NCBI GenBank assembly: GCA_001803565.1
Contig: MHDQ01000001.1
Location: forward strand, 1-20,355
Origin: Nitrospinae bacterium RIFCSPLOWO2_12_FULL_45_22
GTDB taxonomy: Bacteria > 2-12-FULL-45-22
Direction: 5' to 3'
Length of the DNA: 20,355 nt
The position numbers and the translations under genes were made by a program. Shown here piece after piece: positions 12,894 through 13,494 of the stretch (positions are counted from its first letter, which is position 1; every line of letters starts with the position of its first letter). The notes under the pieces are model-generated. The model worked only from the letters and a program-made list of their open reading frames with translations, ran no database searches and was not told the DNA's origin.

Positions 12894-12927
12894 CATAAGC
12901 GTTCAGTTATCAGCTATCAGTGGTCAG
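12894..12927 (+). repeat. CATAAGCGTT copy and TCAG-rich short repeats after the B subunit
   Basis: CATAAGCGTT at 12894-12903 recurs at 12961-12970, where it begins the outer arm of the GIY-YIG unit. It is followed by iterated TATCAG/TCAG motifs to 12927. A similar TCAGCC(A/C)TCAG pair occurs at 14423-14447 after the LpxL-like gene. Confidence 0.45.
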
Positions 12928-13000
12928 ATGAGATTATCGTAAGGGGTGAGGGGTAACGGGCATAAGCGTTAACTTAAGAACACGGTGCTCTGGTGAATTC

Positions 13001-13027
13001 GTCATTCCGGCGAAAGCCGGAATCCAG
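13001..13027 (+). repeat. Left 27-bp palindromic repeat (dRS3-like)
   Basis: Contains ATTCCGGC-GAAA-GCCGGAAT (13004-13023), an 8-bp stem with a GAAA loop, preceded by GTC and followed by CCAG. The ATTCC-N10-GGAAT form resembles the neisserial dRS3 repeat (ATTCCC-N8-GGGAAT). It is the exact inverse of 13329-13355. Confidence 0.85.
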
Positions 13028-13037
13028 AAGGCAACAT

Positions 13038-13328
13038 ATGAATAGGCAACCCGCAGTATATATTCTGGCAAGTAAAAGAAATGGTACGCTATATGTCGGT
13101 ATAACGTCAGACGTGATCAAAAGGGTATGGGAACATAAAAATAATGTAGTGAAAGGATTCACTGAACGATACAGTGTCCATCAACTTGTTTGGTATGAAT
13201 TGCACGAAACCATGGAATCGGCTATCAGGAAAGAAAAGATGTTGAAGAATTGGAAGCGAGTCTGGAAACTTGAATTGATCGAAAGGAGCAATCCGAATTG
13301 GCAGGATTTGTATGAAACGATTGTTTGA
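13038..13328 (+). CDS. Small GIY-YIG nuclease-domain protein (YhbQ/COG2827 type)
   Basis: From ATG 13038 the protein has 96 aa, a single GIY-YIG domain. The two motif halves are VYIL (Tyr8) and LYVGIT (Tyr19, Gly21), followed by the expected Arg29 and His33 (KRVWEHK) and the Glu66 region (AIRKEKMLKNWKR), so the nuclease site looks complete. AGAAGG at the end of the left repeat serves as ribosome binding site about 7 nt upstream. The TGA stop directly abuts the right repeat. A longer reading from 12993 would translate the hairpin repeat and is rejected. Family members are single-domain putative endonucleases of unknown role. The tight framing by perfect inverted repeats suggests the gene travels with them. 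Confidence 0.88.
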   Translation: MNRQPAVYILASKRNGTLYVGITSDVIKRVWEHKNNVVKGFTERYSVHQLVWYELHETMESAIRKEKMLKNWKRVWKLELIERSNPNWQDLYETIV

Positions 13329-13355
13329 CTGGATTCCGGCTTTCGCCGGAATGAC
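13329..13355 (-). repeat. Right 27-bp palindromic repeat (dRS3-like)
   Basis: Perfect reverse complement of 13001-13027, with the same internal 8-bp hairpin (13333-13352). It begins on the base after the GIY-YIG stop codon and could also act as a 3' RNA hairpin for that gene. Confidence 0.85.
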
Positions 13356-13494
13356 GGTGCATGCTAACAATCGGAAACTGCGGGCTATAGAAGATAGCCT
13401 TAAGTTAGCGCTTATGGGGTAAAGGGGATCTCCTAATGCCTTAGCCCTTACGGATAATATTGAAAGCTGGACAATTAAAAAAAGAAAGGTGTGT

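Follow-up and report, generated by a model that had tools for sequence, protein, structure and literature searches.

A small GIY-YIG nuclease gene between inverted CGTC REPs: a candidate REPtron-like mobile unit

The window analyzed here, a 20,355-nucleotide stretch of DNA from Nitrospinae bacterium RIFCSPLOWO2_12_FULL_45_22, holds a small GIY-YIG nuclease gene between two inverted palindromes, and the question is whether gene and palindromes form a unit that moves. We consider it fairly probable, from the sequence of the locus and its parallels in other bacteria, that this is a mobile unit of the CGTC type, organized like a REPtron, in which the nuclease gene lies between two cognate CGTC REPs.

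The gene, its arms, and the enclosing MITE

The features of the locus are collected in Table 1. The ATG lies 10 nt downstream of the left arm, and no nucleotide separates the stop codon from the right one; an earlier note on this DNA had described a 96-aa GIY-YIG gene with the same placement. A ribosome-binding-like AAGG stands directly 3' of the left REP, before the gene; an alternative GTG start at 12993, upstream of the ATG, would read through the left REP.

Table 1. Coordinates of the nuclease gene and surrounding repeats in the window
Feature	Position	Strand	Remarks
Left terminal repeat of MITE, CATAAGCGNTAACTTAAG	12961..12978	+	Encloses the REP unit, probably nested
Left CGTC-1 REP	13000..13027	+	Tag pointing outward
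Left REP tag, CGTC	13000-13003	+	
Left REP stem, first half, ATTCCGGC	13004-13011	+	
Left REP loop, GAAA	13012-13015	+	
Left REP stem, second half, GCCGGAAT	13016-13023	+	
Left REP tail, CCAG	13024-13027	+	
GIY-YIG nuclease gene	13038..13328	+	96 codons 13038-13325, stop TGA 13326-13328
Right CGTC-1 REP	13329..13356	-	Exact inverted copy of left REP; tail abuts stop codon
Right terminal repeat of MITE	13399..13416	-	Inverted partner of 12961-12978

The only Pfam match of the product is to the GIY-YIG family (PF01541, E = 5e-15), with none to any other family, HUH tyrosine transposases of the IS200/IS605 kind included. Residues Y8, Y19, G21, R29, H33, and E66 are conserved, and the catalytic residues Y8, Y19, R29, H33, and E66 are invariant across 35 homologues. 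An AlphaFold2 model (pLDDT 95) has the GIY-YIG fold and, among solved structures, comes closest to a UPF0213 protein; its similarity to Slx1, a branched-DNA nuclease, is weaker. The protein is probably a nuclease specific for DNA structure or sequence.

The 2013 survey that described CGTC REPs (Di Nocera 2013, PMC3733652) gives the anatomy of a CGTC-1 REP as a tag, an 8-bp stem starting with AT, a 4-nt loop, and a CCA tail; we took CGTC, TGTC, or CCTC as the tag. The window arm, CGTC-ATTCCGGC-GAAA-GCCGGAAT-CCA, fits in every feature, and judged by these features the arms are textbook CGTC-1 REPs. The two are 28 nt long and 100% complementary, one base more than the perfect 27-bp inverted repeats first described; the resemblance to neisserial dRS3 remarked on at the time also holds, dRS3 being the CGTC-1 REPs of Neisseria (PMC3733652).

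The second inverted pair reported around the arms exists as described (17 of 18 positions complementary), but it is not, as had been supposed, a further layer of the same unit. The nucleotide similarity between the window unit and a related locus, L050 (88% identical), extends to this outer repeat, ending at about 12961 and 13419, and elsewhere in the same genome the repeat terminates a 224-bp MITE that lacks the gene (L215). The outer repeat was thus rejected as a component of the REP unit, since it belongs to an unrelated MITE with a gene-less copy, and for the same reason the window REP unit is probably nested in a MITE that carried it. The MITE with terminal repeat CATAAGCGCTAACTTAA encloses the unit both in the window and at L050 but is a separate element, as its gene-less copy shows; members of this family lie at C24:7346-7569 (L215) of the own-genome assembly (G000) and also on contigs C71, C107, and C117. 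Direct repeats flank the MITE at L050 (GCTGGAG) and at the 224-bp copy (TCCCTAAGCCC); the window copy shows no clear one. At the thresholds used, the third, weaker inverted pair claimed outside these did not appear. The sole repeat seen there is a direct one, CATAAGCGTTCAGTTA (12894-12909), which precedes the unit and partially copies the outer MITE end. In the left arm of L050, a further palindrome of about 24 nt, ccccggatcggggtccgggg, splits the REP loop.

Association of the nuclease gene with CGTC REPs

The arm pattern occurs 8 times in the own genome (assembly of 3.67 Mb, 85% complete), and 2 of these occurrences flank the nuclease gene. With so few copies, chance flanking of the window gene is negligible (rough expectation, 8e-6 across all genes). 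Five of the remaining copies are in head-to-head heterodimer REPINs with a 10-nt spacer and one is in a REPIN of another type; the copies are dispersed and mostly head-to-head dimers, as is usual for CGTC-1 REPs, and not the solo arms that the earlier note had pictured as offspring. The five heterodimer REPINs are embedded in a longer repeated element, which has flanks tatacacagcgtccaaattaaatacgcataagt / atacagagcgacataattatttgcgcataccaacattgcc and the heterodimer at its center (contigs C306, C302, C283, C40, and C34; loci L002-L005 and L011). That the own genome is poor in REPs and that its REPINs lie within other repeats count against the reading we prefer; many gene-bearing genomes hold tens to hundreds of REP copies. 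No GIY-YIG gene was found in the sole same-order relative of the host, whose assembly is only 68% complete.

A scan in which an alignment of 11 homologues was run against one genome for each species gave 80 loci from many phyla, selected by protein similarity alone. CGTC REPs stand head-to-head within 150 bp of 40 of the 80 nuclease genes, and 65 have at least one REP within that distance, compared with head-to-head flanking of 5/622 other open reading frames (ORFs) of these loci and 0/218 small ORFs (Fisher, 3e-37). Near the nuclease gene there are 2.8 REPs per kb, elsewhere in the loci 0.10 per kb. A motif-free test, which scored the best inverted repeat between left and right flank against a threshold of 12, found such repeats at 72 of 88 homologues and at 0 of 212 random window pairs, and the result was reproduced in 150 evenly drawn Pseudomonadota genomes (22/30 loci versus 2/185 windows). 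At the head-to-head loci, the median distance is 9.5 nt from the last aligned codon to the start of the right arm and 26.5 nt from the end of the left arm to the first aligned codon; about a fifth of the homologues are without recognizable arms. The REPtron-like arrangement proposed from the window is thus borne out and recurs throughout the family, and REPs, rather than lying at random with no enrichment beside GIY-YIG genes, are concentrated at the gene.

More distant GIY-YIG genes proved unusable as a negative control because several are themselves flanked by other GTC-tagged palindromes. This is so within the group at 41 to 54% identity (L026, L028-L030, L032, and L048, with L047 flanked in one orientation), many of whose members have a KAGSR-like motif and which are often flanked by palindromes of the ATTGCGAG or ATGCTGAGCG kind. 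GIY-YIG genes at 28 to 37% identity are mostly without arms, L033 excepted.

As in RAYT REPtrons, the enzyme gene is flanked by its own REP type. Left and right stems are the same in 35 of 51 loci, versus 13.7 expected by shuffling (maximum, 22). On the protein tree, which comes from a short alignment and leaves many forks unresolved, the sixth stem base changes 6 times versus 17.7 in shuffles (minimum 14 in 200 shuffles) and the REP class 6 times versus 13.4. Three paralogues within genome G064 have different stems (ATTCCGAC/ATACCGAC, ATTCTGGC, and ATTCCCGC), and paralogues within G260 and within G082 likewise have different REPs. The carriers of a Neisseria gene group with CGTCATACTCGGG-type flanking REPs all hold 80 to 252 copies of that REP (5/5 genomes).

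Genomes with the gene also tend to be rich in REPs. Many CGTC REPs were found in 15 of 33 gene-bearing and 13 of 117 gene-less Pseudomonadota (5 or more copies; p = 4e-5) and in 5/6 distant genomes with the gene versus 5/53 without it (p = 3e-4), and two Neisseria comparisons of gene with REP abundance gave p = 3e-4 and 8e-4; all four tests ignore the relatedness of the genomes, so that they are support and not proof. REPs in genomes without the gene, namely the 13 Pseudomonadota and Neisseria G093 and G094, call for gene loss or another mover. Genome G044, with 30 REP copies, contains several short broken GIY-YIG matches that might be relics of lost units.

The nuclease had no match in phages. 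Plasmids gave 33 records, some of them REP-flanked. Plasmid pRheCIAT894e of Rhizobium sp. CIAT894 carries a unit (L251) whose 33-nt arms, CTCCGTCATCCCAGGGCTTGACCCTGGGATCCA, are perfect and which is followed on the right by more copies of that REP; another plasmid locus (L250) has no CGTC arms. A search for a clean empty site among Rhizobium plasmids yielded none.

Movement of the unit and competing explanations

The earlier note had also supposed that the unit spreads, and several comparisons agree. Across the stretch bounded by their tags, two paralogues of one assembly (L081 and L092) are 88% identical, and beyond it they are unrelated; the similarity between L102 and L115 likewise stops at the arms. 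Neisseria genes about 97 to 98% identical (L147 of N. gonorrhoeae, L162, and L163) occupy three different sites: judging from the translated flanks, one is near pilC, one in the pdxA-rne gap, and one between ftsY and pilC. In the cases open to testing, then, gene and flanks are not fixed at one locus. Units at sites empty in relatives, which the note had suggested looking for, are exemplified by the pdxA-rne site, occupied in G128 only and without the gene in four sister species; all empty-site data come from this single genus, in which recombination is frequent. At the orthologous gap G060 has one REPIN, G094 and G108 have REP arrays, and G098 has neither. Counting against the preferred reading, as do the homologues without arms, several homologues (L079, L088, L101, and L128) are vertically inherited. 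Another Neisseria nuclease group, found at one site in many species, is undergoing decay by stops and truncation (L173-L176, L179, L181, and L182, most of them at one orthologous site). Genome G189 has four GIY-YIG unit copies (L241 and L259-L261), 75 to 87% identical and aligned from about -142 to +104, with arms of up to 71 nt, which have apparently multiplied.

If the locus is such a unit, the nuclease would bind the REP hairpin, extruded or single-stranded, for example on the lagging-strand template, and would nick or cut near the REP tag; host repair or recombination would then copy the REP pair to another site, either with the gene (a REPtron) or without it (a REPIN). GIY-YIG enzymes are not known to form a covalent intermediate, and we would therefore expect a homing-like cut-and-copy step via REP homology and not HUH-type strand transfer. 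The placement of the gene inside a REP pair and the unoccupied sites that bear REPINs would suit a homing-like route, and the breakpoints at REP tags a transposition-like one.

The same placement could mean that the nuclease is a homing endonuclease that parasitizes REPINs, cutting the REP dimer and inserting between its arms by recombination without spreading REPs. GIY-YIG domains are classical in homing nucleases, homing genes lie inside their targets as this gene lies inside a head-to-head REP pair, and the unoccupied orthologous Neisseria sites hold REPIN arrays. Alone, however, such parasitism accounts neither for REP copy number tracking the gene nor for the joint diversification of REP type and protein clade, and we regard it as unlikely.

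Less likely still, the gene may be a passenger, moved together with its REPs by another enzyme or by repeat recombination, with the nuclease having another role, for example in the repair of cruciforms at REPs. The apparent nesting of the window unit in a MITE that has terminal repeats of its own, the direct repeat at the MITE ends of L050, and the recombination of Neisseria REP arrays would all suit a passenger. Yet other genes of the same loci are almost never so flanked, transposases show no such pairing in PMC3733652, and the association of gene with REPs persists in genomes with very few REPs. That chance or annotation bias is at work, REPs merely adjoining many small genes, might be suggested by their commonly intergenic position (PMC3733652), but the small-ORF, other-ORF, and random-window controls make this so improbable that we reject it.

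Relation to known systems and significance

The candidate unit shares with the RAYT (TnpA-REP) REPtron, an HUH tyrosine transposase gene with GTAG REPs, the placement of one small enzyme gene between inverted REPs, a REP type specific to the enzyme type, dispersed REPINs, and a patchy distribution with gene loss. It has neither an HUH transposase nor GTAG-tagged REPs, however, and because enzyme (GIY-YIG) and tag (CGTC) both differ it is not a RAYT REPtron, although by analogy it may work like one. Other differences are that in many loci little or nothing separates the right arm from the stop codon and that CGTC/GIY-YIG units seem to move whole, which RAYT REPtrons are said not to do (PMC6006769). 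With the CGTC REP super-family, which includes dRS3 of Neisseria and RPE-4/RPE-6 of Rickettsia, the arms have tag, stem, loop, tail, and head-to-head dimers in common. The 2013 survey reported no transposase gene alongside these REPs and concluded that they lack a dedicated transposase (PMC3733652); here the putative partner is a nuclease that is not a transposase.

Two protein groups are also close. UPF0213 small GIY-YIG proteins have the same size, fold, and conserved residues, and the structure records found for them (PDB 1zg2 and 1ywl) state neither a function nor an association with repeats. The GIY-YIG homing endonucleases I-TevI and I-BmoI have the same catalytic domain and a gene within the putative target, but the window protein is a free-standing 96 aa with no separate DNA-binding domain, and its putative target is a dispersed palindrome instead of a unique gene site. 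A 2025 REP survey mentions neither nucleases nor RAYTs, and no report in the open-access literature searched links GIY-YIG proteins to REPs, dRS3, or CGTC repeats.

Since the same gene-REP pairing recurs in many phyla, the small GIY-YIG family appears to be the best candidate for the long-missing partner that spreads CGTC REPs. The wider proposal, that these nucleases are dedicated mobilizers of the whole CGTC/GTC-tagged super-family (dRS3, RPE-4/6, ATTGCGAG-type palindromes, and others) and so a second, non-HUH system of REP mobilization, independent of RAYTs and acting via nuclease-triggered copying, seems to us evenly poised. CGTC REPs are widespread in bacteria, and the 2013 survey left their mobilizer unknown (PMC3733652); a conserved enzyme partner would make their origin directly testable. 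If the proposal is true, there have been at least two origins of REP systems, involving unrelated nucleases. The very common annotation "GIY-YIG nuclease family protein" would also gain a function, and there would be a way into the study of genome plasticity, in Neisseria among others.
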